Shown here: one piece after another, positions 12,591-50,936 of the stretch | Numbering within the stretch: the stretch's first letter is position 1 | Layout: the number at the start of each line of letters is the position of its first letter | Assembly: GCA_029204225.1 (NCBI GenBank) | Contig: CM055095.1 | Span: 15,840,049 to 15,904,048, forward strand | From: Diphasiastrum complanatum | Lineage: Eukaryota; Streptophyta; Lycopodiopsida; Lycopodiales; Lycopodiaceae | Direction of reading: 5' to 3' | Length of the DNA stretch: 64,000 nucleotides | Notes under the pieces: model-generated | The model's database searches: none | What the model was told of the DNA's origin: nothing | What the model saw: the letters and a program-made list of their open reading frames with translations, nothing else | Program-made: the position numbers and the translations under genes

Positions 12591-14449
12591 GAAATGTACT
12601 CACAAACATAAAACATAGAATTGCCAAGCTAGATTTTTGCCAATTTTTCACAAAATTCACATACAAGAACATATGTGAGGCTTTGAATGAATGTGCAAAG
12701 TCTTCTCTTGGTTTAATCTAGATGAAAGGGTATTAATACAAAGAGGAAGAGACTTTCTACATTGAAAAAATTGAAAACAGCACAATTTTAAATCTTAGTG
12801 GCAAAATAGTCATGTAAGTTATAGTTTAAAAACCTAAATACAAAGGTAGTAGAAGTTAATCCTGTAGCAAATAAAAAACCAAACTTGAGACATCTTATCA
12901 CTTTTTTTGGGCAAATGCCACAAAATTTGCTAGGTCAAATTCAAACAAGCCTTTGAAGCACTTTATGTTTCACATGTCATATTAATATTAATAATGTAGA
13001 GACTTTAATTCTTTGGAGTTGATGAGAATCCTAGTATTTTAGAATATTTAAATGAGCATAACCACCAAGGAGTTTGAAAATGAGCAAGGAAAAGTTGTTC
13101 GTTATTCACTAGGGGGCTAAGTGAATCCATCCATTGATTTCTTCCAGCAATGGTCATAGTAGTTGCCCTGCTAGATCATTTTATTCTCTTTACTAGTATT
13201 GCAACGTAGCTTATTTTATAGTAAAAAAGGACCATATAGGATATATGAGCCTAGATACTTGTAATTTTATTCAAGCTTTGAACGTCATGAATAGGAAATA
13301 TAGGGCTTTCCAACTATGTTACTAACTTTTTGTTATACTACATAGATTTGTATTCTTAAATTTTATTCACACTCTATGTTATAGTTGTATGCAATTTTTT
13401 TTTGGATTTTTTTATAGCATTACATTGAGTGACATGCCCAAAATATTGTTTGTTGTCTTATGGCACAAATTTTTTGATGTTGACCCTAAGATTTGTCTTA
13501 CACAAAATTTAGCTTCATATGATAATGGGTTGTAAATGGTTGACAATTTTGATCAATTAAGCTTGTGCATATGTTTGAATCCATTAAATTAAGCTTGTAG
13601 ACATAGCAGCTCATGCTTTGATTATGTGACACTTGTAGAGCCTATGCTAACAATTTCATAAAGAATATAAGAGACATAGAAAAATAATGTATATGTATTT
13701 TCAAAATTCATACATAACTTTAAGTACTAAGTACATATATTTTATAAAAAGGCTGCAAACTTTCAATGTGTCATTTCAAATCAAGATAAATCTTAAAGAC
13801 AAGCCCAATATCACTTTAAGTATCTAGATGCAGATTTTGAAAGAGAATATGACATTGTTATTATTGAATAAATCTTAGTAATTGGACTTTTCAAAAGAAA
13901 AGAGCAAATATTTTGCTGTGTACGATGATTTGTAAATGATTCTGAAAAATTCTATTCCTTTTTCAAAAAGATGAATCTATAAAACACTGCATGTACATGT
14001 ACATAAGAAAATTGCTTGATCATTTATTACATTACAGTTTTTATGTACTAATGTAACCAAGATATTTTAGTATCATCATTGAGTATGAGTGATAATAGTA
14101 TGCAAACAATTCTAGAAAGTTCTCCCTCTAATGTTGATGGCCATAATATGAGGACTTGACTATTAGACATATTTGTCGTGAGTTCACCCATGTTTTGTAG
14201 TTTTTCACTTGACACTATTGATTTATACACAAAATGCATAAGTGAGAAAAATCATGTTCGTAAAAAAATTCAAGTCACTAATTAGTATGTAAGTAATAAG
14301 ATGGTCTTTAGATAACGCATCTCAAATAGGATTTTAGACTTTTAAAATTATCTCATCAAAACATACAAGCCATATTATATAGAAACTTGAAGGCCAAATA
14401 ATAAAATGTGAAACATTTTGTAGGGGGGCTATTCAATATGTAAATGTAG

Positions 14450-18674: not shown

Positions 18675-19584
18675 CCAACCAAAGTGCAAGATTCAAAGAA
18701 TCCTTAGTTAGATTAAAAAAAAAATGGCTCATGCACCAAATATGAAATTATGAATTTTGAACATTATACAATCTCATGTCTCGAAAGTCAAAAGCTTATT
18801 AGTTAAGCATTTTTCATTTCCATAAAAATCATCTAAAAAGTTCTTAACTTTCTATAGTGCAAGTAAAGCATGCCATCTTGTAAATTGTAATTTAAGTGCT
18901 TGAGCTCATTCATTCCAAGTTTCATTGTTTGATTATACATTTTATAGTACTTAACACAATTAACAACACATACTAACCAATCATGATTGTGGAAAAAGAA
19001 TGATGTAGATATATTTTAAAGCATATTTTTGTTCCATGCAAAGATCAAATGTCTTGCTTATCATACACACTTTAACACTTGAATCTTAGAATTCTAAAGA
19101 ATAAGCATGATATTTTTAGTTAGAATAACACAATATGGTTAAAATGTTAGCCTACGTTTTGTTGTTTTTTACATTTTATGTGGTTAGATTGTCACAAATG
19201 AGTCAAAATTGTACATATCTCGTCTACAACTATGTGACGACTTGAAAAGTGGGTTGTCAATTACACCTTATTATAATCTATATGATCAAGATTATGATTA
19301 AAGCATAGCTCAACTAGTCATTTTGATACCCAAAAAAAAAAAAAGTAGATAGTGATGGAAAATAACAATGCACCAAGATACAAGAATGAAAATCTAATTC
19401 TAGCACATAATTATGATCCCATCCCTGACGGTAGACCACCTCATTAGTATACCAAAACTTGTCTATGAGAGAGATACTACAAAAGTAGAATGAGAGAGAT
19501 CAAAGTAGACAATGTGTAGCCACTTCCTTCTCTTCAATTTTTCACAAAATGAGAGAGATAGAAAATCATCCTCCTACACATTAG

Positions 19585-20433
<849 letters not shown>

Positions 20434-20834
20434 CTTGTATTCACACTATTGTGGCTTGGTAATGAAGTTGTTGTTGGACCGATCATAGGCTTTGACTTGG
20501 TTGAGTGGTTTGGCTCCATTGTCTCCTTTTGAGTGTTATGTAGGCTTGATCTCTAGGGATCATTTCATTGGCATCCATGAGTAACCATCCTTTGAATAAT
20601 TCATACTCACATTTAGAATCCATAGTCAAAGGATTTTTTTTGATAATATAAACACTAATAATTTTTCATGGAAATCATTTTGAAAGCCTCATTTGATTTA
20701 TCTTTACTAAGCCTAAGCAATGTGTTTATGAGTTTATCCGTAATATGTAAAATTCAAGTAAAGTTTTTTGGTGTTTGGCAAGGAGGATCTTGTAGCACTA
20801 GAGATTTTGCATGGAATGATTTAGGGCTTAGCGT

Positions 20835-21336
20835 TTGAGTGCATTTTTGACTAAGCTTATCTCACATTTGGTTTTGAACTATGCAGCTTTAACCACATCG
20901 GATTATAACGCATGTTACATTTGTGGACCGCTTTTGGAGGGTCGTCATAGCACAAATATGTTGAAAAAAGTGGTCTACAAAAATCATCGCAAATACTTGC
21001 CGCTTGATCATCCTTTTCAAAGGTTGAAGGGCAAAGATCCTTTAACTACACCACCACCCTCACACATGGGAGTAGTGGAATGGCATGGTGAATGGGTTAA
21101 ATATCATGATGTTAATTCTTCATGGAATGAATCCATTGATGGTATGAAACAGTTGTCTATTTTTCATAAATTACCCTGTTTAAAAAATTTATTGATAAAT
21201 CATCTATTGGATCCTATGCACATATTCAAAAACATAAGTGAATCACTATGGAACCACATCATTGGCATAAAAGACAACTCCCCAGCTCGTAAAGATCTAC
21301 AAGCGGCCGACATGAAAAGACCCTATTGGATTCAAT
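20835..21336 (+). pseudogene. CACTA (En/Spm) transposase TNP2 fragment
   Basis: The frame contains hallmarks of the plant TNP2/Transposase_21 family in order: the Cys pair YNACYICGP, then KYLPLDHPFQR, HKLPCLKNLLINHLLDPMHI (normally LxxWxxLxLRHNLDVMHIEKN), FKNISESLWNHIIG, and ARKDLQAADMKR. TNP2 is several hundred residues long, so only a central piece is left. No TIR beginning CACTA was found. From about 21,385 the frame runs into copia LTR sequence of the opposite orientation, suggesting a later insertion. Confidence 0.82.
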
Positions 21337-21389
21337 ACACTGAAGGTGTAGATTGTTGGAAAGAGGGGTGTGAAGAAAGAAAACTAAAA

Positions 21390-22010
21390 AAAAAAACAAA
21401 CACGAAAACGAAGCAAACTCGAAACTCGAAAAAGAAATAAACTCGAACGAAAATTGTTCGTGCGTAGCGGAATAAGCTATCTCACTCTTTTCTTAAGCAT
21501 GACTACGCCTATCAGACTCGAACAAAACATAAGTGATAGAAATCACGTTCGATCTGATTACGTAGCCAAACATTAAGCATCAAATACATCAAAAAGATAA
21601 TTTGTCGTGAACAGCTAGACAAATTATTAGTCACAAATTATTCGCGAAGAGCTGGACTAATAATCAGTCGCAAATTAGTTGTGAAAAGCAATAAATATTA
21701 GTCGCGAATAGCTAGACTAATAATAATTCGCAAAGAGCAGACTACCAGATTAAGTAATAAGAAAGCCAGACAGAATGTAGAAAGGCATTGCAATATTGAC
21801 ACAAATCTGAATGTAGAACAAACAGAGCTGTAATCAGATTAAGTATAGCAAAATATACAGGTCAATAATGCAAGTGAGCACAAGACAATAGCGGACGTAA
21901 ACGCGTGGTTCACAAAGTTAATCACACAATCTGTAAAGGTGATGAACCTATAACTAACAATACATCTGAAAGAAAAGAATCAATGTGCGAAAGCATCTAC
22001 AATGTCTGTC
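21390..22010 (-). mobile_element. Family A LTR-like sequence
   Basis: In reverse complement this matches the LTR at 15,968-16,330 (shared CTTGTGCTCAC, ATACTTAATCTGA and ATATTGCAAT). The distal part (about 21,600-21,735) holds a degenerate direct repeat built from TTAGTCGCGAATAGCTAGAC-like units, and the end carries CGAGTTT-type short repeats. No coding content. Confidence 0.6.
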
Positions 22011-29286: not shown

Positions 29287-29998
29287 ATGGCAAACGTTAG
29301 TGCTCATGGACGAAGTTTGCCTTCTGATGAAAAATTTATTACATTCCAAGCCCAGCTGGGATTCCTTCGTCCATCGGTTATGAAATTTGCTGATGACTCT
29401 TCTTCAATTGGTGGTCACAATATAGATCATCTCGATCTAGTTGCAGCAGATGATGATGAATGTGTAAGCTTAAAAGTTTTATTATACGTTTGTTTATCTG
29501 ACGTATGTGTTTTGCAGAATTCAATTTGTGCTAAAAATTCCAATTTTGTAATTGTAGAATACACTTTTTATCGATGACTTTGCTACTCGTTGAGGGGGCC
29601 TCAGACAACATTCATCATCTTTTCACAGGGATAGTGGCCTCGGCCACTACTTGAGACACTTTCAAAATAATGAAATTTGCATTGCTCTTTCCAAATTCAG
29701 TCCAGTTGGAGAGACAATGATAATGGTTATGAAAGCCTTATCTTATTATTTAGGTGGACATAAATTTGCGAGAGCACATAAAATAATTTTTGTGAAGAGA
29801 TCTTATGTTTTAAACATATTAGGATTTGTTGATGGGAATGTACCATTAAGGAGTTCCCATTATTCATTGTATGCAACATATATAGAATTGAGTGGTAACA
29901 AGGACAATGTGCATCTTCTGGATGCATATGCAAGTAGAGAATTATTGCATGACAGCACAACAATTGGACAAGAGGATGAATCGGATACCTCTGAATGA
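29287..29998 (+). pseudogene. Small two-exon gene of unknown family, one in-frame stop
   Basis: Exon 1 is 29,287-29,463 (ATG start, MANVSAHGRSLPSDEKF, ending in an acidic run before a GTAAGC donor). Exon 2 is 29,558-29,998, after an ATTGTAG acceptor. The join keeps frame and gives about 205 codons ending DESDTSE. One in-frame TGA at 29,591-29,593 interrupts it and would be a CGA-to-TGA change if the ancestor had arginine. Exon 2 contains LSKFSPVGETMIMVMKALSY and GFVDGNVPLRSSHYSLYATY. I recognise no family. It converges on the - strand gene ending near 30,040, with about 40 bp between them, so the two may belong to one element. An alternative acceptor at 29,518 gives only a short tail. Confidence 0.45.
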
Positions 29999-30039
29999 TG
30001 ATTTGTATATATTGAAAATTGTGAATACAATTTACATTT

Positions 30040-32460
30040 GTAGCAACTTTGTATCTCTGAATTTTTAGCTTCTATGTTGCTCAATAGATTTGCAAGCTTT
30101 TCTGAATTTGTCGTAATTTGAAGATTTTGTGATCTATCGAATTTGAACTCTATGGTAGAACCACTGAAATAATTGGCAAATATAGTTTCGTTTTTCATTG
30201 GTTCCTCCATGTTGTGTATTTCGATGAAATACTGCCCGTGCTTGCCAATGTGACTTCTCCATCCCTTGTGATGACCAGACACTTAGGCTTCCATATGTGT
30301 TTGCAAAAAATGTTGTATGATCTCTTAGTATGTGCGCCCCGAAACTTGCAAAACGTCGAAGTAGTATTAGAGAGATGCTGCACATGTCAAAATCGTAATG
30401 TCAGTCTTATGCTTGGATCAAAATATATAATTCAATTGATAGCTGCTTTGAGCATGCATATTAACCATGTAATGAGTGATGTGATCTTCTCCCCATGCTT
30501 TTGATACTGCATCAACAAAATCGACGCAAGTCTTTTGTAGAGCTCTCTTATCAGTATCATAAAATTTGTCTTTTCTTAATATCTTAATCATACTGTCAAG
30601 CTTTCTCCATACATCAACTTTCAATAATCTTGATTTGTCGATCACTCCTAAGTCTTCAGTGGCAGCAACAATTTCTTTCCAGACTGAGTATTGAATGTTT
30701 GAATCCTTACCAATATGGTTTGATAGGAATCGACGTGCTTTTGCTCCTCCGATGCTTGGCTTAGTTGGCATATTTCCTAACTTTCCAAAAAGCTTTTCAT
30801 CTTTTTGTATTTTGACATGTCCCTTATGCAGTCTTGCTTTTGATAGAACATCTTCTAACCGACAAATAGCTTCCTTCGCAACTGATGCTGACTTACTATT
30901 CCATGCAAAAACTATATGAAGATAAACGAGCTTTTCTATTATCCTAACTTCTGCATGAAGAGTGCAAACATGCACATTTTTCAAGGGAATAGGCAATACT
31001 GGCTTCCAGTTTGGATCTGCATTTTCTCTAGTAATTCCTGTACTTCTAGTTACATCTTTTGCCATTTTCATGCAGTATATTAGATGTAGCACCATGAGAG
31101 ACATTATACATGCATTTCAGTGTTTATAAATCACCTGTTAAGTGCCATTCAACTTGGAAGTCTCCAACTCCTGAAACTCTGAGAAATCCTCCTTCCATAT
31201 GGTCCTTGATAATCCGAGGGGAAGATGTCCTAGAGAATATCCATGATAATATATTGTGATTCTCCTTCAGTACCTATCCAATGCATAAAACCAATTTAGT
31301 TAAATATGAATTATGCAACATTGTATGAAATTAAACTTAGTTAATAAAGAAAATAATTACCTGAAAAGCTGCCAACCACCATATATCATTTTCGGACTAG
31401 ACACTAAATTTGAAGTCTCCTTGGTCCACTGTTTGAGATAGTGCACCACTCATGAGAGTTATACTAACTCTCTCCATCTTCTGCCCTTTCACAATCTCTG
31501 ACTCATCTAACTTAAGTACTATGATTATTTTACCATTCACCTTTTCTAAGGTTATATCATAAAATGTGACCATGTATGTTAACAAGTGATTTAGATCAAC
31601 AAAGAAGTTGTTTGATGAATTATATGACATGGATCTTCCATCAATTTCATACACTTCCTCTCTATATGAAATGGGATACCAATGATTTTATGCATACTTA
31701 AGTTCAATGTATTCCTCTCTGTCTTCAAGTGATATGACCTAGGGATGGGGACTTTTCTAATTCGAACTTGCTTAAAGGCATCCCTAATAAGTTGAAATAT
31801 TGTTGAATATGTTTCTCTGCTAATACCAGCAAAATCACAAACACCCTGAACTATAGTTTTATCTAAATTTTTTTGAATGTCTAACATCAAAGACTATGCA
31901 ATTTTGGACTTTGCATTGGAATTCCTATTGTTCATCATGATACACTCGGTGGATTTGCCTGTCAATATGGAGCCCAACAACATTCCAATTGATGCATTGA
32001 CCTTTATATTTTGATGAGATACTAATGCAGATCTACAAAAAAAAACCAGATAGTTAGTAGAACAACATAGTAGCAGAAATAAAACCATATGTCACTAATC
32101 AAGTTACAAAAAAATCAGAGTATGCTTACTTGAATGTTTGAATTCTTCTATTTCAATAATCTCCTTTTGAAAGGATCTGAATATCCTTGCAACTTTCCCA
32201 CTTTCGCTTCTTAGTCCTAGCCTCCTTCTTCTTAGCCTCTTCCACATCCTTCAGCAATTGCAAGTTTTCCATACGAATAGATTGTAAGATTGATTGCATT
32301 CGATCTAGTTCTGATTTGATATTGAACGCTATCTTCTGTAATGAATCATTACTCTTCTATAATGATTCATTATTCTTCTGTAATGATTTATTATTCTTAT
32401 GTAATGATTCATTATTTTTTTGAAGTTTTCATTTTCCTCTAAAGTCTTTTGGACATGACC
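30040..32460 (-). pseudogene. Decayed multi-exon gene, unknown transposase-like family
   Basis: Reading down the - strand: a lysine-rich coiled coil with four heptads of the form NNESLQK (32,420-32,334), then KSELDRMQSILQSI and EEAKKKEARTKKRKW; an exon from 32,032 (VCDFAGISRETYSTIFQLIR, VPIPRSYHLKTE); 31,654-31,397 (KIIIVLKLDESEIVKG, LMSGALSQ); SENDIWWLAAF before a donor; an exon from about 31,273 (VSGVGDFQVEWHLTGDL, then LKCMYNVSHGA); 31,104-30,490 (LPIPLKNVHVCTLHAEVRII, WGEDHITHYM); and a last block WSSQGMEKSHWQAR. Stops and frameshifts occur in most exons, so it is not functional as read. Conserved Asp/His/Cys blocks, a nucleic-acid-like basic coiled coil and a converging companion gene suggest a mobile-element protein. 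I cannot name the family. Confidence 0.5.
32334..32420 (-). repeat. 21-bp tandem repeat coding for heptads
   Basis: About four units of TTCTTCTGTAATGATTCATTA (+ strand sense). The 21-bp period is seven codons, so on the - strand each unit encodes a coiled-coil heptad (NNESLQK-like). One unit carries a TAG. Confidence 0.8.
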
Positions 32461-34672: not shown

Positions 34673-37600
34673 CTATGAAGATTTAAGTATTGATCTTGAT
34701 ATAACTCCAAGATTAGATCTATGCTTGATGAAAGCACTTTTGCTCAAAGGCTTGGTGAGTAGATCGGCAATACAAGAGGACGAGTTGACATGCTCCAAAT
34801 AGATTTCTCTTCCAATAAGCTTTTCTCTCACAAAATGGTGTGCCACTTCTATGTGCTTGCTTCTTGCATGAAATACGGGATTATTGGCAAGAGCTTGGGC
34901 CGAGATGTTATCACACTTGATCATTGGTAGATCATCTTCCTTGATGCACTTTAGCTCCATTAATAACCTCTTGATCCAAAGCACCTCTTTGGTAGTTGTA
35001 GTGAGTGCTTTGTACTCGGCCTCACATGAAGAGAGAGATATAGTATCTTGCTTTTTGGAAAGCCAAGATATTAGATTGCCTCCAAGAAAGATAGTTTATG
35101 CACTAATAGACTTTCGATCCATCTTGTCACCCATCTTGTCACTTGCAAAGTCCGAATCCGAGTAGCCAACAATGGATAGATCTTCACTTTGATAAAGTAG
35201 ACCATAATCACAAGATGAAGATACATATCTTAGAATCCTCTTGGCCATCTTCCAATGATGGATCTTAGGATCTTGCATAAAGTGACTCAATTTGTGCACA
35301 CAAAAACTTAGACCGGTCCTAGTAATGGTAAGCTAAATGAAGGAGCCTACAAGACTCCTAAAAAGTGTGATGTCCTCAAAGGATCTTTCATCACCTTTAT
35401 TAGGATCTTTTACAATTTGCTCCATTGGAGTATTTAGGCTCTTAGAATTTTCCATATGAAATTTTTTCAACATAGAGTGAGCATATCTAGATTGGCATAT
35501 AAAGACATGATCTTCATAAAAATCAATTTCTAGGCCTAGGATGTAATGTATCTCTCCTAGATCTTGCATTTTAAACTCACATCCAAGTGCTAGCTTAACT
35601 TCATCAACTAGCTTGATACAACTTCCACAAAGAATAATGTCATCAACATAAATTAGAAGAATGACAATAATGCTATTAATAAACTTTAGATACATGTAAG
35701 GATCATAGTCACTAAGAGTAAATCCTAGTGAGATAAGAAAAGCATTAAGTCTTGAATACCATGATCTTGGTGCTTGCTTGAGTCCATAAAGACTTTTGAA
35801 GAGCAAGCACACTTTGGACTCATCCTTGATGAATCCTTGAGGTTGTTCCATATAGATCTCCTCCTCAAGATAACCATTTAGAAAAGCATTGGATACATCT
35901 AATTGGAACACCTTCCACTTAAAGAAACAAGCAAGAGAAATAAGAATTCTTATTGTCACCATCTTTGCAACGGGTGCAAAGGTCTCCTCATAATCAAGGC
36001 CATGGATTTGAGCAAATCCTTTGGCACATAATCTTGCTTTATACTTGTTGATGGTGCCATCATGATTGAACTTGATTTGAAATACCCACTTGCAACCAAT
36101 CACATGCTTGTTGGATGGAGGATCCACAAGCTCCCAAGTATTGTTGGTGATCAATGCATCATACTCTTGCTTCATGGCATCATACCACTCCTTGGTATTG
36201 AATGTCTCTTGTACATTCTTTGGCTCTTCATGAGAGACATAAAAAACATAATTAGTGGAATCAAGATCCACTTGTTTGCCTTTGTCAACATATGAGAGCC
36301 TCTTAGGCTCGGATCTATCTCTCATGGATCTTCTTGGTGAGAAAATCCAAGGAGAGTCTTCTTCCATTCTCGACCCCATCACATCATAATTGTCTTCAAA
36401 ATCAATAATAGGTGATGCATCCATAGACTTCTTGATCTCAACCTCTTCAAAAGATGAGTGTTGATCTTCATGAAAGACAACATCTCTACTTTCAATAACT
36501 TGAGAAGTAGAGAGTACAAAGACTCGATAGGCCTTCTTGGTGGATGAGTATCCAACCATGATCCCTTTGCATGCACTAGGATCTTCCTTCTTCCTTGTTT
36601 CCAAGGGAATATGGGCAAAGCATATGCATCCAAAAACTCTAAGGTGATCAACCTTAGGCTTCTTCAAATATAAGATTTCATATGGTGACTTTCCTCCAAG
36701 AGCTATATGTGGGAGCCTATTGCAAAGATAATTTGCACAATTAATGGCTTCTCCCCAAAAATATTTGGGCAAAGATGCCTCAATTCTCATAGATTTTGCA
36801 CATTCACATAGAGATCTATTCTTTCTCTCGGCCACTCTATTCTGAGATGGAGAGTAGGCACAAGAGAACTCTCTTTTGATGCATTCAAGCTCACAAAAAT
36901 AATCAAATTCATTGGAGATATATTCAGCACCTCCATCACATCTAAGAGCTTTAATCTTGAATGAGAATCGCTTCTCTACATAAGCTTTAAAAATAAGGAA
37001 ATGATCAAACACCATAGATTTAGAAGCAAGAAGATATATCCAAGTGAATCTTGTGAAATCATCAATGAAAGTAACAAAACAAGTGGCTCCTCCCTTCCTT
37101 ATAGTTGATGAGAAATGCACATCCGAGTGGATTAACTCCAAAGGATGCTTGCTTTTGATAGAAGATCTTGTAAATGGCTTTTTGTGAGATTTAGCAATAG
37201 CACAAGCCTCACAAGGCTTGATCTTCTTGGAGAATGACTTTGTCAAGCCAATAGCTTTGGCCTCTTTGATCATAGAGAGCATGGATTTGTAGTTGGGATA
37301 TCCCAACCTCCTATGCCATAATTCCTCCATAGAGAGCTTGTTCACAAGAGCAACATTACAAGCATTCACATACTCATTTGGATCTAGTTTATAGATGCCT
37401 CCAAATCTAGATCCTAATGCAAGTATCTCATCATTCTTCTTGATAGTGCAAGTATCAACATTGAATTTTACATCAAGGCCATTATCAAGCAATTGGCCAA
37501 CACTAATGAGATTCTTAGTAAGCTTAGGTACATAGAGAACTTTAGAGAGAGAAAGAACTTTAGAGGATGCAAGCTTCAAGGGAATGTTCCCTATGCCTTC

Positions 37601-38725
37601 AATAGGACATTCAAAATCATTTGCAGTGTATGTTGATTTCTTGACTCCATCATAAGGTGCAATAGAAGAGAAAGAGTCCTTGGAGCTACACATATGTGAA
37701 GAGGCTCCACTATCAATATACCATAGGCCGTCCTTCTTGAAAGGAGTAGATGAGAAACTAGAGACCATAAGAGATCCCTCTCCTTCACTTGCAATAGTGT
37801 CTTCCTTTTCATTGGTATTGTTGGCTTGCTTGAGTTGATTCTTCTTCTTGAAGCAATTGGTGGCATAATGGCCTTTCTTGCCACAATAAAAGCACTTGAT
37901 CTTCTTCTTCTTGAGCTTGGATGATGAAGCATTAAAGGAATCATATTCCTCCTCATCTTTGTCTTTGGATTTGGCTTTGTCCTTGCTTGAGGATTGTTGT
38001 TATTGGTTCTTGCTCCTCCCTTTGTGCTTGTCCTTGGCAAAGAGGGCTTTGCCATCATTATGAGTGAGAGAAAGCTTGTCCATCCTCAAGAGCTTGTACT
38101 CTTGTCTTGATTCTTCTGAAATTAGCACACTTTGGAGAGCCTCCAAACTTGGTAGCTCCTCCTTAATGGCATAGGATTGGACAAGGTTATCAAATTCACT
38201 TCTCAAGCCATTGAGAATGACTTGGACTAGCTCATTTTGATTGATGGAATCACCAATACAAGCAAGTTCTCTATGAATATCTTTTACTCTCAAAATATAA
38301 CTAGATGCACTCTCATCACTCTTTTGGCTACTTTGAAAGATTTGATTCCTAAGAGTGAGAAGCCTAGAGGTATTCTTAGCCTCATAGATAGTCTTGAGAC
38401 AATCCCAAGCTTCTTTGGCTGTTGTACAAGTACCTATCTCCCTCAATATCTCATTAGAGACATTCATCTCAATGTAGTGGAGAGCCATCCTAGCTCTCTT
38501 TTTGTATTTTTGAACCTCTTGAAGAACTTAAGGTTCTTCTTCAAGGCCAAGAACTATGTCCATCACGTCTTGAAGGATCAAGATGGACTCCATCCTCATC
38601 TTCCAAATTGAATAGTTTGAAGTGGACAATCTTTCACTTGGTTCCAACAAGGATGAACCCATTGAAGACATTTGAAGTGAAGAAAACTCAAATGATGAAC
38701 AATAAATGTTGCTAGACACTCCCAA
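34673..38725 (-). pseudogene. Copia gag-pol polyprotein of element C, four in-frame stops
   Basis: One reading frame runs from about 38,725 to 34,673. Gag: TSNYSIWKMRMESIL, KEAWDCLKTIYE and the zinc knuckle CFYCGKKGHYATNC (about 37,880). Protease: LWYIDSGASSHMC. GAG-pre-integrase: ELWHRRLGYPNYKS. Integrase: HSDVHF, RCDGGAEY, NRVAERKNRS. RT: YVDDIILCG. RNase H: SYSD-like GYSDSDFASD, then HIEVAHHFVREKL and DLLTKPLS. The frame is broken only by nonsense codons at 38,530 (TAA), 38,002 (TAA), 35,335 (TAG) and 35,098 (TAA). There are no frameshifts, which fits a recently inserted copy. The 811-codon open stretch 37,768-35,333 covers protease to RT. Confidence 0.95.
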
Positions 38726-41207: not shown

Positions 41208-42494
41208 GTACAGGGAGTGTACACAGTACAGTGTTGCCGTTGAAGAGAGCTTCGGGAGAACTGTCTTATGAGAGTTCGGGGTTTTATGGCGGGTTGAAGA
41301 ACGAAAGAGAAGCACTGGTGCACGGTTTCTAATATATAGAGCTTGCTAAGCTCAGCAAAGAGATTATTAGCCTGTGCATAGCATCAGACAGGGAAAAATT
41401 TGGTGAAAAATTGACAATTTTGAAGCCAGCTGAAAATTGAAACCGGACTTGGAGTTACGGTTTTTATACATAACTGGTGATTTCTTCGCTGTTTGTGCAC
41501 CATTTTGGATGCCCAAGAAGGAAGCTAATCACACTGTCAATCAGCCATGGAGAGATTTTGAGGTTTATGTCAGAGATTTGTCTCCAGACAGTTAACCTAG
41601 CAGATTTGCAGTAAAAAGGTGAAAAAAGCCACTTTGTCAAGTTGAGCTAAAATCACCGTTTCTCGACGGAATTTCTTGACTGAATACTCTATAGTCATGG
41701 ATTTAGTAGGGCGACCCTGCTCCAGGCCTCAGATCGTGCTCAAAACGATCCACAGGAGAGCTTGATCTGATGTTTTTGAGAGAAGGGAGGTGCGGTCGCA
41801 GGCAGGGAAGTCGCGGGTAGTTCACGCACCCAACGCGATAAAGAACTTAGTGTACCGAAGTTCTTAGCGTATGCAGGAGTTTGGTTCGATGCCCAGATGT
41901 ACTTTGAACCTTTAGATGAGGTGTCAAGTGAATCAACGGTCCAGAATCTGTGATGGGAGAGAAATTTGAACCACAAGATTTGGTTCAGCCATTGGATGAG
42001 CTTTAAATAGGGTCTTGAAGAATTGAAGTGCATTCTGGCCTTCAACTTCATTAAAAATTTTCATACTGAAAGTTGAGTCCCTTCACAAGTGAAGAGTGAA
42101 GTTTCTTCAAAGTGAAGAAACAGTTCAAAAGCTAGAAAAGTCCCTATTTTTGGGTCCTTTGCCCGTTTTGACCCAAACGAAAGGCTATAACCTCCAAACG
42201 AAGGGTACCCGGACTGTACCTGCAAGTACGGTACAGCAAAACAGAGCGGTTGCAGCGGATAAAGTGTTCGGAGTACGCCAGAAGTAGTTTCACCATTCCA
42301 CTGGGCACGTTGTTGGAAATTGACGACTGAGTGCATTTTGGAAGGCGACGCCGATTTAGCTTTCAAATTGGTGGAAAAGCGGCGAGTGGCCTGGTAAGAA
42401 AAAAAGTGCAGGTCATTATTTTCAACTTCTGACATCACTGTTGGCCTCGACATACTGTTCTTAGCCTAAGGCAGAAGTTTTAAGCAGTTTTGCG
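41208..42494 (+). other. Unusually long untranslated leader of element D
   Basis: 1,287 bp separate the primer site from the first gag ATG. No + strand frame of note is present. Two - strand frames (42,051-41,740 and 42,453-42,061) have no recognisable motif. The leader may carry packaging or translation-control elements, or captured sequence; nothing in it could be identified. Confidence 0.6.
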
Positions 42495-45400
42495 ATGGCA
42501 AACATGGGAGAGTCCATTTTGAGTGAAAGTAGCAAATTGGACGAGATTTCCAACTATGCAGTGTGGAAATTCAAAATGAAAAACATACTGATGGAGAAAG
42601 ATGTGTGGGAAGTCATCACAGGTGATGAGAGAAGGCCGCCAAATGAAGCAGACATCAAAATGTTCGACAAAAAGATGAGGAAAGCTTTGACCTTCATTAA
42701 CGTGTCAGTGAAGGATCACATCATTACCCACATTTGTGATGCTATTACACCCAGACAGGCATGGGATGTGCTAAAGAAGCAGTTCGAGACGTCAAATCCG
42801 TCAAGAATCATGTTTCTGAAGTCAAAGTTGAATAGTGCCCGCATGGAGCAAGGAGAGCACATTCAGACGTACATGACCTAAATCAAGACAATGAGAGATG
42901 AACTGCATTCTATTGGAGAATGCATACGTGATGTGGAGCTGGTGCATAATGCATTATGCGGCATTGCAGAACCCTATCAGATGTTTGTGAGCGGAATAGC
43001 ATCAAGAGAAAGATTGCCAACCTTTGACGAGCTCACAGGAATCTTGATGCAGGAAGAGCAACGACGAGAAATGGTGAAAGCTAGACGTCAAAATACTGAT
43101 GATCAGGCACTTGCGACACGCCAAAAACAAGGCAAGGGCAAGGGCAAGAAGAAGACTAAACAGCAATTTGCCAAGTCTCAGGAGGATGAGGGATCTTTCA
43201 GCAAAACTAAGAAGAAAGGCAAGTGCTTCCATTGTGGTAAAAAGGGCCACTAGAAGAGTGAGTGTCGCAAATTCCTGGCGGAACAAGACAAGGGAAAACC
43301 AAAACAAGCAGGTAACCTTGTCGATGAGGGTGAGATTAAAGACTCTAGCATCTTCATATCTGCATTGTCATCCAATCAAGATGATCAAGCATGGTATATT
43401 GACTCAGGAGCCACAAGACACATGACAGGTAACAAGAACTGGCTCAGTAGTTTGAAGGCATTGGATAATGGAACATCTATTTCACAAGCAAATGGTGAGG
43501 TGTGCATGATCAAGGGGATAGACACAATTTCAATCCAACTGCCTGACGACAAAAGCAGGATGATTAGGGAGGTACTTTACGTACCAGGTTTGAAGAAAAA
43601 TCTACTTTCTGTTGGAGTTATTACTGATCAAAAGTTGAAAGTAGAATTCGCCCATGATCGTTGCTTTGTGAAGGATGCGAACCAAAAGTTCAAAGTTATT
43701 GCGAATGGAGTAAGAGAGCCCAATACAAAATTGTACAGGTTGAATGCCACAATCAAGGGGCAACATGGACTTGTGTCATCCGTTCCTTCGCAAACTGAGT
43801 TGTGGCACAAGAGGCTTGGTCACTTGAACTTGGGAAGCCTCAGTTTGATGAGAAAATTGGAGATGGTAACAGGACTGCCTACAATAGAAAATCACCTGAA
43901 ATCGATGTGCGAATCTTGTATATATGGGAAGCAGCATCGAGAGAAGTTCAATAAAGGGGGTGTTGCAAGAGCAAAGAACATCCTGGATTTAATCCACAAA
44001 GATTTATGCGGGCCCATGAGGACCATGTCCTTAGGAAAAGACTTCTATTTCATGACCTTTATTCATGATATGTCACGTAAGACGTGGATCTACTTCTTGA
44101 AGAAGAAATCAGATGCTTTTGATAACTTCAAGAACTTCAAAAACTTGGTCAAAAATCAGACAGGTAAGAAGATCAAAGTCCTAAGATCAGATAGTGGAGG
44201 TGAGTATAAGTCTAATGACTTCAATGATCTTTGTGATCAATGTGCGATTAAAAGACAATTTACGCAAGCTCATACTCCTGCTCTCAATGGTGTAGCTGAG
44301 CGCAAAAATTGTACGATTGTGGAAAGTGCCAGATCTATGCTAGCTGAGATGAAATTACCAAAAGATTTTTGGTCAGAAGCATGTAGCACGGCAGTCTATC
44401 TTCAAAATAGAAGTCCTACCATTGCCATACCAAAAATTACACCTGAGGAAGCATTCACAAAGAAGAAGCCAAAGGTGAACCACTTGCGAATCTTTGGATG
44501 TAAGGCCTTTGTACATATTCCTAAGGAAGAAAGACGTAAACTTGATGTAAAAGCTATCAAGTGCATATTCCTAGGATATGATGATCGCGTGAAAGGCTAT
44601 AGATGTTTTGATCCAGTCGAAAACAAAATCCATATAAGCCGAGATGTTATCTTTGATGAATCCAAGATGTATGAAGACGAAGATGCTGAGAAGATAGACA
44701 CATCCAGTAGGAAAAATGGCATAGTGAGGATACCACCTGATGATGATCCATTCATTGACCTTCTGAGTGATGAACATGAGGATACATCTCAAGATACTAC
44801 TACTCAACCTCAAGAAACAGGTTGGAGAGGTAGGGACAAACCTCTTGGTGCAAGAAGGATTGAAATTGCAGGTGACAAACGCAAGGAGAAGGATGTATCG
44901 TGGGATACATTTTCACCAGGAAGCCGATCACAGCTTCCTAAGTGGTTTGAGAGATTGATGGAGAGCCGCGATATAGATGACTTTCCAAGATCATCTAACC
45001 AGGGAGAGCTACGAAGATCAACAAGAGAGAAGATACTACCTGAAAGGTATGAAACAAATTATGCTCTGTTATCCAGCATTATTCAAAGCAAAGAACCTTC
45101 GACTTATAGTGAAGCGAAGGATGATGACATTTGGATCAAGGCCATGGGAGAGGAGATGGAGTCAATTGCTAAGCATAGCACATGGGACTTAGTAGAACCA
45201 CCAGTTGGCAAGAAATCCATTGGTTGCAAATGGGTATATAGAACTAAGTACCATGCAGATGGAAGCATAGCAAAGCACAAAGCAAGATTGGTAATAAAAG
45301 GGTACGCACAAAATAAAGGCATTGACTATGAGGAGACCTTTGCGCCGGTGTGTAAGTGGAATACTCTACGTCTACTTATTGCTTTAGCTTCACATTTTGG

Positions 45401-46625
45401 TTGGCCTTTGCATCAGATGGATGTGAAATCTGCTTTTCTAAATGGTGAGTTAGAAGAAGAAGTGTTCATGGATCAACTTGAAGGCTTTGTAACGAAAGGA
45501 CAGGAAAATAAAGTATGTCGCTTGAAGAAAGCGCTTTATGGTCTTAAACAAGCACCACGTGCGTGGTATAGCAAGAGTGATGCCTACTTTCGTTCAAAGG
45601 GGATGGTGAGAACACATTCTGATCCAAATCTATATGTTTTATGCTTTGATGGTATGGTTGCTTTGATTGCTCTTTATGTTGATGACTTGATTATTACGGG
45701 AAATAATCAAGAGATGATAGACATAATCAAGAAAGACCTCATGGAACAATTTGAGATGACGGATCTCAGCCTGATGCATTACTGCCTTGGAGTAGAAGTG
45801 TGGCAAAAAGGACATGAAGTGGGTTTAACACAAGTGAAATATGTCAAAGAGTTACTACACAGGTTTAGGTTGCAGGATTGCAAACCAGTAAACACTCCTA
45901 TTGAACCAGGTAAAAAGCTTTCTAAGCTTGATGAATCACAGTCATTTGATGCTACGCTATATAGACAGTTAGTAGGGAGCTTGATTTACCTTACCACAAC
46001 TAGACCAAATATATGCTATGTTGTTGGCATTGTAAGTCAGTTTATGGCAGCACCTACGAAAACGCATTGGAAAGCAGCTAAACGCATTTTGCGTTATGTG
46101 AAAGGCACTTCAAAGTAAGGCTTGATTTACAGGAAGCATGATGGTTTACCTGAGTTGTGTGGCTATGTCAATGCGGACTGGGGAGGTGACTATGATGATC
46201 ATAGATCCACCACAGGATACATATTCCAGTTTTGTGGTAATTGCTTTTCTTGGTCTAGTAAGAAGCAAAGTACAATTGCTCTTTCCACCACAGAAGCTGA
46301 GTATAAGACAATGTGTAGTGCTGCACAAGAAGCTATATGGTTGAGACAAATCTTGGAAGAGATTGGCATGAAACAGAAAAATCCCACAACTTTACATAGC
46401 GATAGTCAGAGTGGCATTCAGCTAGCAAAGAATCTAGTGTTCCATGCGAGAACTAAACATATTGAGATTCAATATCACTTCATACGTGAAAGGCTGCTAA
46501 GTCGTGAAATTCATGTTGTTCATTGTAGCACAGAAGAACAACTAGCTGATATTTTCACTAAGCCACTTACTGGAGAAAAGTTTGATAAGTTTAGATCAAA
46601 ACTTTCTGTATTCAAATTTTGTTGA
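42495..46625 (+). pseudogene. Copia gag-pol polyprotein of element D, three in-frame stops
   Basis: One frame from the ATG at 42,495 to a TGA at 46,623. Gag: ISNYAVWKFKMKNILM, RQAWDVLKKQFE, zinc knuckle CFHCGKKGH (43,228-43,250). Protease: WYIDSGATRHMTG. GAG-pre-integrase: LWHKRLGHLNLGS. Integrase: HKDLCGP, RSDSGGEY, NGVAERKNCT. RT: YVDDLIITG. RNase H: YVNADWGGD, ALSTTEAEYK, HSDSQSGIQ, ADIFTKPLTG. Stops are TAA at 42,879, TAG at 43,251 (directly after the knuckle histidine, where Trp is common) and TAA at 46,116. There is no frameshift. All catalytic residues of integrase and RT are present, but the copy is not translatable as one polyprotein. Confidence 0.96.
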
Positions 46626-46959: not shown

Positions 46960-48149
46960 AACGTGAAAATGTGGCACCGTTGCAACCGTAGCCTGCTGAC
47001 TGCAGGAGCATGACGTTGAAACCGTATGTCAACCACAATCGTTGACTTGGTGAGCTGCCATTCGTTCGCTTCGTAGGTGAACGTAAGTGATCACTTATGT
47101 AGTTTGGCGGTTGTTGGATGTCCACCCTCTAAATCCCTATTCTCTGCTAATCTAGATCCATTCATTAAGTTGTAAATATCTGTACAGTCGCATACTCTGC
47201 AGAATATACTTGTCTCTTGATAGTCTATAGAAATACAAAGGAATCGGTGACAGTGTTACGCGATAGTTCGGCCATCTCTTCCTTGTTGGCCACCTTCTCT
47301 TATTTGGCTATCATCGATTATTCAGCCATACCCGATTGGTTGGTCATCCTAGACCATCTAGGCAGAGTCTCTTATTCGGCCTTCCTCGAACAATCGGCCG
47401 TAATTTGACTATCGGCAAATCAGCAAGTACACACATCACGACCGGACAAAATCAAATATTGTCCGATGGTGATTGCCAACAGCACTAACCTAATTGTAAA
47501 TTATAGATTAAAATTAGTTAGCCATGTGTATATATCCAGCAACTTATCAGTTGTTCAGTTAGCTGAATCATCTAATTCATTGTGATCAATCAGTCATTCA
47601 CAACGCAATTGTATTGTTCTTTCATCTAACCGACCAAAAGGACGTAATCGTCATGAACCAACCCAACTGACCCTATCGCACCGACCCAACCCTATTGACC
47701 TATCCCAATTGACATAATCCAACGGACCGTCGACTTAATCCTACTATCTATCCCAACCGACTCAATTCAACTAATTAAACCTAGTTGTCGTATCTAAAAT
47801 GACCTAATTCAACTGACCCAACCCAACTATCATAATCGTCATGATCCAACGTGAATGACTCAACTTAACCCAACCGAACCAATCCCAAGTAACCAATCTC
47901 GCACACGACTGACCCAATCAATGCAACCAAACCTAACACAATTTGACATGACTGATGCTAGCACCACACCCAAGCCTAGAATACAAATACAAACCCAAAA
48001 CCGAGGCCACAATGTTGGGACTAAGTATAGAGCTTTCTAAACCAGCTACCCAACCCCAAGACAAAGGGTAGCCCTCGTCCTTAACTTAGGTTGTCCTATG
48101 GATTGGTAGTGGTGGATTTATGGTTCCAATGGAAAGAGCTACATAGGAG
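46960..48149. other. Repeat-like DNA: TCGGCC words and a G-poor degenerate minisatellite
   Basis: From about 47,265 to 47,410 the words TTCGGCC, TTGGCC and TCAGCC recur at short intervals. From 47,640 to 47,960 the + strand is built from degenerate CCAAC(C/T)GACC(C/T)AAT-like units and is very poor in G. A 61-codon frame at 47,855 is a product of this repeat. No gene recognised. Confidence 0.65.
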
Positions 48150-48211
48150 GCAGTTTGGCCAAGAAGGATAATGGAAGACATTGGCATCTTGTAGAGTTAG
48201 CCTACAACAAT

Positions 48212-48213
<2 letters not shown>
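48150..48213 (+). pseudogene. Short Ty3/gypsy integrase-like scrap
   Basis: The + strand reads GRHWHLVELAYNNQ, close to the WxxxLxxVEFAYNN signature near the end of the gypsy integrase core. Only about 20 codons remain before the (CT)n tract begins, so the call rests on one motif. Confidence 0.4.

Positions 48214-48215
<2 letters not shown>

Positions 48216-48272
<57 letters not shown>
48216..48272. repeat. (CT)n then (TG)n microsatellite
   Basis: About 49 bp of CT passing directly into about 9 bp of TG. Confidence 0.97.
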
Positions 48273-48464
48273 TGTGCAGTATATTTCTCTGCAATTTTAA
48301 AATCCAATCAATCAAACTAAACATTATTTGACCATCTATTGCACTCTTTGCATAAAAGATTTTGAAATTCACTCATGATCATAACAATAAAAATTCACAA
48401 AACATCCCAAAACAAGTACTATTATATATGTCATGCAATCTGAAACACAACACAACAAGTAGTC

Positions 48465-50936
48465 TCAGTCCTTAGAAGAGGCTTCGAATGCCTCATCGTC
48501 AACAAATACGCATCTCTTAGATGCTCTCCGTCCCAAATGACTGGAATGCTTGTCATTTAGCTGCTCCATTGACCTGGCCAAGGATTCTGCATAGCAAGGC
48601 AAAGCGCTACATCAAATGTAATTTGTTGAGAATCTCAAAAAGAAAATACATGCTAAAGAGCAAGAGCAAAAACCCACTTACTGTTGACCTGGAGAGCCAA
48701 TTTCGTATACTCTCGAATCCAACTCAGGGACAGTTGTGTCCTCATCCACAATGCATTTGGTCATTGTCTAACACTGCAAAAACAAATACGAGAATTAGAA
48801 ATTTGGAGACATAAAAAGAATGCACTTTCTATAAGTATGGATGATAAAACAAATAGTCACAAAATACATTACCTCTATTTGTTTTTAACCATGCCTCGTC
48901 ATTGTCCATGCCAAACAGATGGACACTCGCCATGCGTGTAGCCAACATTGAGGTCCTAGTGCGAATCATGAAGTCGACAATAATACCACCTTCTGGGCAA
49001 AATGCAGACATAAGAAAGAACATGAAGTACTCACTTTTTTCGGTGCTACCTCTTAATGGCTTGTCTGTCAAAATCAATGCATTATCTGGCGAAGCCTCCA
49101 AGACACTGACCGACCACCGATTCCACGTGGATTTGCTACCAACTACACCATCACACAAATATCCAGTCGACAAATCTATGATCACCAAATCAGCCTCGTA
49201 AGTAGTGACCTTGCCCTTTACTCTCTGTAATGTGCATCTTCTTTCTATGAACTGTCTCATCGTATGATATTCCAAACTATTTTTCCCATTTGCACATGCA
49301 TCCCGAATGGAATTCACATATGCACTTGTTCAAGACTTGATGGGCAATGCATCAACCTTCACAAACTTGTACTCTACTATTCTTCTGTTCACGGGAGTAT
49401 AGGATACAACCACCTAAAGAACCGAAATCCATTACACAAAAATGGCGCATCAAAGGAACAAATTGAAGAACAGTTATGTAAGTTACGGGATTCCATTGAT
49501 AAAAAATGTAGTTATGATCACCTCCTCCTCCTCTGGTTCATGTGGCACCTTTTTCTTGCCCTTGTTAATCGGAAAAATGTTGAGATTCTCTGGAACATTG
49601 GCAAGAACAGATTGTGATGCCATCTCTATGGCCATTGCCTCTCCACCCTCCTCATGCCATTGATATTGTGAAATCTCAGAAGGAGGGCATTCACCTTCTT
49701 TAAAATCAATCCACCAGGGACAGTACTTAACCTCCCACTGACTCATGCCATCTTTCCTATCCAAATTCGCCCTCTTGGAGTACATAGTGACTTCAAGTTT
49801 TATGGAAAGCTGATTCCACATCTCCATGAATGAAGGCTTTTCTTTAAGAATTTTCTTGACTTTCAGATGGAACAGATACCTAGCAATACAAGTATGTGAT
49901 TTTGAAGTAGGAGCTTATGATATTACAAAATCAAAAAGAAGTATGTGTTTCCGATTGAAAATGCAACACGTAGAATGATTACCTCCAAGTAACGCGTTTA
50001 GCTGCAAGTTTGACCTCCTGCTTTGTTTCAATTGAGAGTTGAGGCTCTATCAAGGAAGATAATGAAAAGAATAAGAAGTCACGATAGCATAGCTTTAGAG
50101 AAGCGAAGTATTTTGGAAAAGAGTCCGCATCACTTGAATCAAAGCCTGCATTTTTCATTTATTTGATTTGACATAAAAAAAACATAGTGGAAGGTAACAA
50201 GCCAGACAAAAAACTTTACTTTCAAGTTATTGCATACCTCCATATCCCTCACACAACTCAAAAATCTTCTGGGCCTCTATTTGCAAGGCTTCATAGAATA
50301 CTTCTTTCCCCACCCAAGCTTGAAAGAGCTTATCACCAATGGGAATAGAAAATTGGTCTCCAGCAACTGCACCACCAAGGCACATCGTCAACCATTGGCA
50401 CCTCTTCTCATTAGAAACATCTGAAAGTCTCAGGGTGTTCAACTTTTCCAAACCCATTGAGAATCCTTTCTCGTCAAGATGATCTTGGGAGAAAAGATTA
50501 CAGGCAAGAACAGAACTTTTAAAGACATATTGTTGTCGAACGGTCCACCAGAAAGTAGAGTATCTATTTCCATGTTGCGGAAAAGTCTTGACAATGGAAA
50601 CATGCAAAGTAAGCAAAGCTATAAAAAGGAGGCTTACTTTGATGAGCTTTCCTATGAAAGCTTACCTATCGAGAATTCAGTCCTCAACACTCAAGTATGG
50701 AGTACCCCTATGGAATTGGGACAGAATTAGCATAGCAAAATTTTAACTCACGGCTCACTTAAAGCGAATTGGAGGACGAAATTATAGAGCACCTGTTTTA
50801 TTACTGTAGCAAGGTGCTCTAGATAGAGTTTGTGCACCTCCTTCGCCATTGGGGATTCACCTTCACTCTTGGGCTTGATACCATGTTGTTGGGCGGCTCT
50901 CATGTCACAAATCACTCTTCTCTGAGTTTTTGTCAT
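48465..50936 (-). pseudogene. Multi-exon gene ending in a beta-class DNA methyltransferase-like domain, decayed
   Basis: Exons read on the - strand with consistent GT-AG sites: 50,936-50,793; 50,586-50,238; 50,145-49,983; 49,879-49,522; 49,413-48,873; 48,773-48,682; 48,586-48,465. The first five join in phase. N-terminal part: QRRVICDMRAAQQHGIKPKS, then CQWLTMCLGGAVAGDQFSIP. The fifth exon resembles an m6A/m4C methyltransferase in beta order: ADLVIIDLSTGYLCDG at the catalytic (D/S)PP(Y/W) site, then SASPDN-like NALIL, EKSEYF and FCPEGG, IIVDFMIRTRTSMLATRMAS at the cofactor site (normally DxFxGxGT), then GMDND. The key PP and both glycines are replaced and the segment between is short, so activity is unlikely. 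A TGA interrupts at about 49,330, and exon 6 is out of phase with exon 7 (which ends EAFEASSKD, stop at 48,465). The family is inferred by eye; an unrelated Rossmann-like protein is the main alternative. Confidence 0.55.

Follow-up and report, generated by a model that had tools for sequence, protein, structure and literature searches.

A probable dead copy of a dispersed, intron-bearing gene family related to beta-class amino-methyltransferases in Diphasiastrum complanatum

The gene relic and its neighbours in the window

The window, i.e., the whole stretch of 64,000 nucleotides of Diphasiastrum complanatum DNA analysed here, belongs to contig C4 of a host genome of 1.7447 Gb and 5176 contigs, all searches of the plant's own genome being made against this assembly. 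According to the open frames and splice sites of the window, its minus strand carries a multi-exon coding relic with GT-AG junctions at positions 48465-50483. An earlier note on this DNA, made from the sequence itself, had described seven phased exons ending in a region like a beta-class DNA methyltransferase. The chain with GT-AG junctions between 48465 and 50483 withstood the analysis, while exon 1 (50936-50793) and the start of exon 2 (50586-50484) had to be detached from it. The relatives of exon 5 of this gene are here given the family name FAM-B.

All the exons lie on the minus strand. The true part of exon 2 (DHLDEKGF...CEGYGG) occupies positions 50238-50483, has the acceptor TTTTCTCCCAAG before 50483 and shows 70% identity over 81 aa with the FAM-B copy L092. 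When exon 2 was searched against its own genome (best 150 of 383 candidates scored), five of the 149 non-self matches listed reached upstream of residue 29, the other 144 starting from that residue onwards, which argues against placing the first third of the exon as originally drawn (50586-50484) in the gene. The former exon 1 (50793-50936) lies outside the gene and has 13 other matches in the genome (the best at 67%). The nine of them that fall on large contigs keep a distance of over 20 kb from any FAM-B place listed, for which reason it is assigned to another repeat. In profile searches, it gave a single faint match to the unrelated R3H (E 0.14).

Exon 3 (49983-50145) is 48-58% identical to L086, L090 and L092, and 38% identical to L093, while pieces 42-65% identical to exon 4 (49522-49879) are present in L083, L086, L088 and L090-L092. 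Exon 5 (48873-49413) is a fused methyltransferase exon: its counterpart in the relatives read consists of two exons (5a and 5b), whose matching parts are separated by about 0.4-0.6 kb. Exon 6 (48682-48773), aligned in L083, differs in frame from the preceding exon, this being the only place where the exon phases of the chain disagree (49413-48873 versus 48773-48682). The last exon (48465-48606) has a TGA at its end and is aligned in L083, L086, L090 and L091. Beyond it, a 3' flank common to L083 extends over positions 48103-48464, with 88% identity down to 48216, then a GA tract, and a final short match down to 48103. The nearest relatives, L083 and L084, share 84-91% DNA identity with the window copy in the aligned pieces. 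At the other end, homology to FAM-B starts at about 50480 and the 5' part is missing; the N-terminal exons of L092 have no match anywhere in the window.

In the permuted enzymes, the catalytic motif IV has the form (D/N/S)PP(Y/F/W), and motif I, which binds AdoMet, the form D-x-F-x-G-x-G-T. Along the minus strand, the motifs of the window copy follow one another in the order that had been claimed: (i) DLSTGY (49159-49176), at the position of motif IV; (ii) the EKSEYF block; (iii) VDFMIRTRTS (48949-48978), at the position of motif I; and (iv) GMDND (48898-48912). The loss of the catalytic PP and of the cofactor glycines was also seen correctly: the catalytic motif is absent from DLSTGY, and the glycines that relatives keep at motif I (DLHVGVGTS, DPFMGGGRT) are gone. 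The same holds for the stop and the frameshift, found as an in-frame TGA at 49330-49332 and as the frame mismatch of exon 6. Lastly, the centre had been described as shortened, and the comparison with both nearest relatives places a junction at 49071/49072 where 423 nt (L083) or 408 nt (L084) are missing, so that the shortening corresponds to a deletion.

Judged by its sequence, the window copy is dead, being affected by a 5' truncation, a deletion of about 0.41 kb, a stop, a frameshift and the disappearance of the motif I glycines; in other words, as read from the DNA, it is damaged in no fewer than four respects. In all likelihood it has no function of its own: it is an ordinary pseudogene, whose worth lies in having pointed to FAM-B.

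Other elements are found in the same window. By eye, two Ty1/copia-type elements with long open frames can be distinguished at 35333-38527 (minus strand) and 42465-46625 (plus strand); their copia-type frames comprise one of 888 aa and pieces of 138, 123, 954 and 168 aa, and the second element ends about 1.8 kb from the window gene. Positions 20832-21440 (plus strand) hold a piece of a CACTA-type transposase (Transposase_21, E 0.00058, under the curated cut-off). Between long CT/GA tracts, at 19509-20532, several short-unit copies give artificial SL or ER repeat frames on both strands. Copia-type polyproteins, a Transposase_21 piece and long GA tracts fit a plant source. Finally, the minus-strand coding-like pieces at 29594-31116 (GHHKGWRSHIGKHGQYFIEIHNM...), which have no Pfam match, resemble by eye an ORF (GHRKEWKNLIGKQERHFIKVHNM) of locus L064, located on the strand opposite to the methyltransferase gene of that locus; these pieces probably represent another repeated gene.

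Methyltransferase ancestry and dispersal of FAM-B

Neither the joined window gene nor exon 5 matched anything at E<=10 among Pfam, NCBIfam, PHROGs and PDB sequences; thus, the check proposed in the earlier note, a Pfam search for PF01555 with the joined exons, gave a negative answer for the window copy. A viral methyltransferase HMM was also used, built on E. coli YhdJ together with 29 of its viral relatives (some of them near-identical). With this model, exon 5 obtained 4.2 bits, in the register that had been perceived by eye; this score was matched by 24 of 10000 shuffles (8944 given a score), and exon 5 ranked third among the 698 ORFs of the window (515 given a score). Taken alone, the window sequence has a methyltransferase likeness no better than chance.

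The identity of the region was obtained from its relatives. In collections besides its own genome, viral contigs scanned with exons 5, 4 and 2 and genome contigs scanned with exon 5 contained no relatives. Within its own genome, exon 5 gave 572 candidates (best 150 scored), the best non-self relatives having 83% (residues 6-89) and 74% identity over the two parts of the exon. The divergent FAM-B copy L093, which reads VVVDPFMGGGRTLYACRRTRRHCIAMDSD, reached 37.1 bits (E 4.1e-9) with PF01555 (N6_N4_Mtase), over the curated cut-off of 26.7 bits. Its C-terminal region matched PHROG methyltransferases (E 3e-10), and it also matched the solved adenine methyltransferases DpnA (E 6.9e-6) and CcrM (0.0061). 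Four other copies remained under the PF01555 cut-off, namely L088 (E 4.8e-5, 23.8 bits), L086 (E 2.1e-4, 21.8 bits), L090 (E 4.7e-4, 20.6 bits) and L091 (E 0.1, 12.9 bits), and PHROG DNA methyltransferases were matched by L086 (E 2.8e-5) and L090 (3.1e-4). Against viral beta-class methyltransferases, a FAM-B profile of seven copies, window excluded, obtained an hhalign score of 48.7, and none of 300 column shuffles exceeded 35.1; adding L093 to the profile raised the score to 75.1 (E 7.6e-12). For its part, exon 5 scored 98.3 bits with a FAM-B HMM of eight relatives, window excluded, as opposed to 10.0 for the best of 10000 shuffles (7705 scored). The PF01555 match of L093, the hhalign comparison with shuffles and the 98.3-bit score together make the chain from the window, through FAM-B, to N6_N4_Mtase a sound one. 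Hence, by sequence homology, the C-terminal half of FAM-B is shown to descend from an N6_N4_Mtase enzyme, a permuted amino-methyltransferase of the beta class, and the C-terminus claimed for the window gene is borne out through its relatives.

FAM-B is a dispersed family. The listed matches of exon 5, exon 2 and the N exon of L092, merged when 10 kb apart or less, fall in at least 233 places over 24 large contigs, a count that includes fragments and possible assembly duplicates. At eight loci, the N exon, exon 2, exon 5a and exon 5b appear in order within 5 kb (in Mb, C1:69.94, C2:35.81, C2:54.87, C9:38.34, C14:11.09, C14:11.27, C16:37.97 and C21:24.60). The permuted (beta) order, 5a before 5b, was seen at these eight loci and in L083, L084, L086, L088 and L090-L092. 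Introns are kept in the FAM-B copies compared. Furthermore, L086, L090 and L092, on C1, C12 and C14, are 91-93% identical in pieces of 0.4-2.0 kb running through introns, which indicates that these copies spread as DNA and not via spliced RNA.

A canonical motif IV occurs in none of the nine FAM-B copies read. Its site reads DLSTGY in the window and L083, DLLTGY in L084, VSGY in L086, DLPLGY in L088 and L090, DLPSRY in L091, DLPSGY in L092 and DFSTN in L093. Motif I ranges from DPFMGGGRT (L093) and DLHVGVGT (L086, L088 and L090-L092) to DFLIGTGT (L084), DFLIGTRT (L083) and the DFMIRTRT of the window, where the glycines are lost. The intact relatives expected by the earlier note were thus found as regards the cofactor glycines but not as regards DPPY. 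The absence of motif IV from all nine copies makes catalysis by FAM-B unlikely; to judge from these motifs, the family is probably inactive as an enzyme.

The FAM-B loci examined showed neither a transposase gene nor terminal repeats next to FAM-B. The idea, taken from motifs seen by eye, that the N-terminal region might be a ParB-like domain was abandoned: there was no Pfam ParB match and no PHROG match, the AlphaFold pLDDT values (42 and 36) were too low to use, and the comparison of FAM-A with the FAM-B exon was no better than shuffles, 66 of 200 reaching its score.

FAM-A, a cousin family, and its transposon-like unit

The search of the genome with PF01555 gave 1605 first-look candidates; the best 150 were scored, and all 150 exceeded 26.7 bits. 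These matches constitute a cousin family, FAM-A. Counting L057 and L060 as a single place, 27 FAM-A places were examined for motifs: LDLFSGSGTT is present at 18 of them, and DIPYG, a variant of DPPY, was found by pattern at nine and also read in L064. On C22, four PF01555 matches stand in a row with a spacing of about 4.5 kb (12333634-12347569), likely a tandem array.

The methyltransferase exon is common to all twenty 10 kb FAM-A loci compared. Regarding the limits of the unit, seven other FAM-A copies match one longer stretch, A, up to a common 3' end at its positions 14114-14133, and a common 5' end (position 5322 of A) exists in A and in a second longer stretch, B, so that the unit measures about 8.8 kb in A. 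Its 5' end is CAACAC(A/G)ATGA in both copies followed (A and B), and the 3' end GTCATCATGTT is exact in five of eight copies, with variants in the rest; the ends of the unit are based, then, on two copies for the 5' side and eight for the 3' side. One copy, that of stretch A, shows a possible 4-base target-site duplication (TTCC).

Upstream, on the opposite strand, there is a divergent gene. The corresponding piece of L064 matches DUF7869 (PF25273), which we take to be a transposase domain, with E 8.7e-5 and 22.6 bits (cut-off 26). In the whole genome, DUF7869 had 2953 candidates, of which the best 150 were scored, all 150 above the cut-off. Distances between families were computed on the large contigs C1-C24 only, where the listed places amount to 123 for PF01555 and 128 for DUF7869. 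On these contigs, three pairs of listed PF01555 and DUF7869 places are 10 kb apart or less, as compared with about 0.2 expected, and two of the three have the divergent arrangement (C8:59.80 and C17:38.03 Mb). In the few copies followed, FAM-A thus appears to lie in a transposon-like unit, which is bounded by short inverted ends and also holds a divergent gene resembling DUF7869.

On the large contigs, the listed FAM-B places are all more than 10 kb away from the listed PF01555 places and more than 20 kb away from each of the 128 listed DUF7869 places (from the best of the 2953 candidates). The likeness between FAM-A and FAM-B is weak (hhalign E 2.8e-4, probability 41), and an HMM of 20 FAM-A C-terminal exons fails to recognise exon 5 of the window (-1.7 bits). 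Given the weak hhalign match and the lack of listed proximity, a common origin of both families within this genome would be conjectural. Apparent matches of window exons 3 and 4 in FAM-A loci were dropped (E 0.03 and 0.3, respectively, the former on the wrong strand). Many matches of both families have twins of identical score, located either on small unplaced contigs or on the same contig at a distance of 130-560 kb; these twins may correspond to assembly duplication, and the copy counts of FAM-A and FAM-B may then be inflated.

Interpretation and comparison with known systems

As a whole, we consider it likely that the window holds a dead member of the dispersed multi-exon family FAM-B, one that has lost its 5' part and a piece of its interior. 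Concerning the ancestry of the gene, a chance resemblance, or a domain of another fold, is hardly credible: the window sequence alone does lack anything above noise, but its relatives align in one and the same register with PF01555 and with the DNA methyltransferases of PHROGs, shuffles score far lower, and L093 refutes such a reading for practical purposes. It is very improbable, too, that the gene in the window still works, its stop, frameshift and lost centre having been introduced by mistakes of sequencing or assembly. A single stop and a single frameshift could be errors of this sort; a deletion of 0.41 kb, a missing 5' half and lost motif I glycines are not point errors, and stops are present in the close relatives L083 and L084 as well.

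The main rival concerns the nature of FAM-B, which could be a domesticated host family of pseudo-methyltransferases grown by segmental and tandem duplication rather than as a passenger of transposons, the window containing one of its pseudogenes. The conserved exon order of FAM-B and the several equal-score pairs 130-560 kb apart on one contig, which would fit segmental or assembly duplication, are compatible with such a family, as is the fact that transposase genes or inverted ends were not seen beside the FAM-B loci examined. Nevertheless, copies 91-93% identical on several chromosome-sized contigs, at least 233 places over 24 contigs and, as in mobile repeats, stops in many of the listed copies speak against it, and we regard a host family of this kind as rather unlikely.

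The earlier note had also suggested an old mobile element. FAM-A, with its inverted ends and transposase-like gene, supports this idea on few copies; for FAM-B, the support is indirect. According to the mobile-element explanation, the ancestor of the families would have been an amino-methyltransferase borne by a mobile element. A catalytically competent ancestral protein might have marked the DNA of its own element with 6mA or 4mC, and this marking could have interfered with host silencing or helped the transposase to choose its ends. With its near-canonical active site, FAM-A would be the candidate for placing 6mA or 4mC on the DNA of the element. FAM-B, which partly keeps the AdoMet site and lacks the catalytic motif, would be at most an AdoMet- or DNA-binding partner, and it too may have multiplied as DNA, either within a transposon or carried along with one. 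Both the step from homology to activity and the step from the dispersion of FAM-B to transposition are ones that we infer. The full scenario is a tentative one, less likely than not: a plant DNA transposon with FAM-A beside a divergent DUF7869 transposase might write 6mA or 4mC on element DNA, its non-catalytic cousin FAM-B having perhaps spread alongside as a partner or silencing antagonist.

If that scenario were true, a bacterial kind of DNA mark would be a mobile-element trait in a plant, and the epigenetic repertoire of transposons would be widened, through FAM-A, by an enzyme class new to it. To our knowledge, candidates for the writers of 6mA and 4mC in plants are few. There is dispute over the writing of 6mA (PMC12695648) and 4mC by plants, and over the enzyme responsible. 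With well over 100 PF01555 places, partly in a transposon-like unit, and more than 200 FAM-B places, the plant 6mA/4mC question becomes directly testable. No report of PF01555 genes in plant transposons was recognised in the literature searched, most subscription papers lying outside the reach of that search.

Among known systems, the PF01555 beta class (CcrM, DpnA, MboIIA, RsrI, YhdJ) shares with the families described here the succession of motif IV, recognition region and motif I, as well as, in part of the copies, a cofactor site, seen as VVDPFMGGGRT in L093 and as LDLFSGSGTT in many FAM-A copies. The differences are that the genes of D. complanatum are split by introns, that FAM-B is devoid of the catalytic motif and that long N-terminal exons have no database match.

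In eukaryotes, the N4CMT of bdelloid rotifers is an intron-bearing, bacterial-type permuted amino-methyltransferase which is fused to a chromodomain, exists as an allelic pair and writes 4mC (PMC8885841). The resemblance lies in the bacterial, permuted type of the amino-methyltransferase and in its introns within a eukaryotic host; unlike that allelic pair of 4mC writers, the genes studied here occur in more than 200 places, have other N-terminal exons and are known from sequence alone. Closer in terms of host, MpDN4MT1a/b of Marchantia are described as 4mC methyltransferases of sperm (PMC8566409), of bacterial origin and with no extra domains (PMC8885841). They are likewise amino-methyltransferases of a land plant, a likeness by description only, and differ from the present families in being two host genes acting in sperm.

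Finally, some transposons carry epigenetic genes. Examples are the anti-silencing proteins of Vandal elements, SET in HarbingerS and MuDR elements, and TET/JBP in fungal transposons (PMC12730594). FAM-A would resemble these elements as a DNA transposon provided with a gene acting on epigenetic marks. It differs from them, as they are presented there (PMC12730594), in that its cargo is a bacterial-type amino-methyltransferase accompanied by a DUF7869-like gene, instead of regulators, histone methyltransferases or 5mC dioxygenases.
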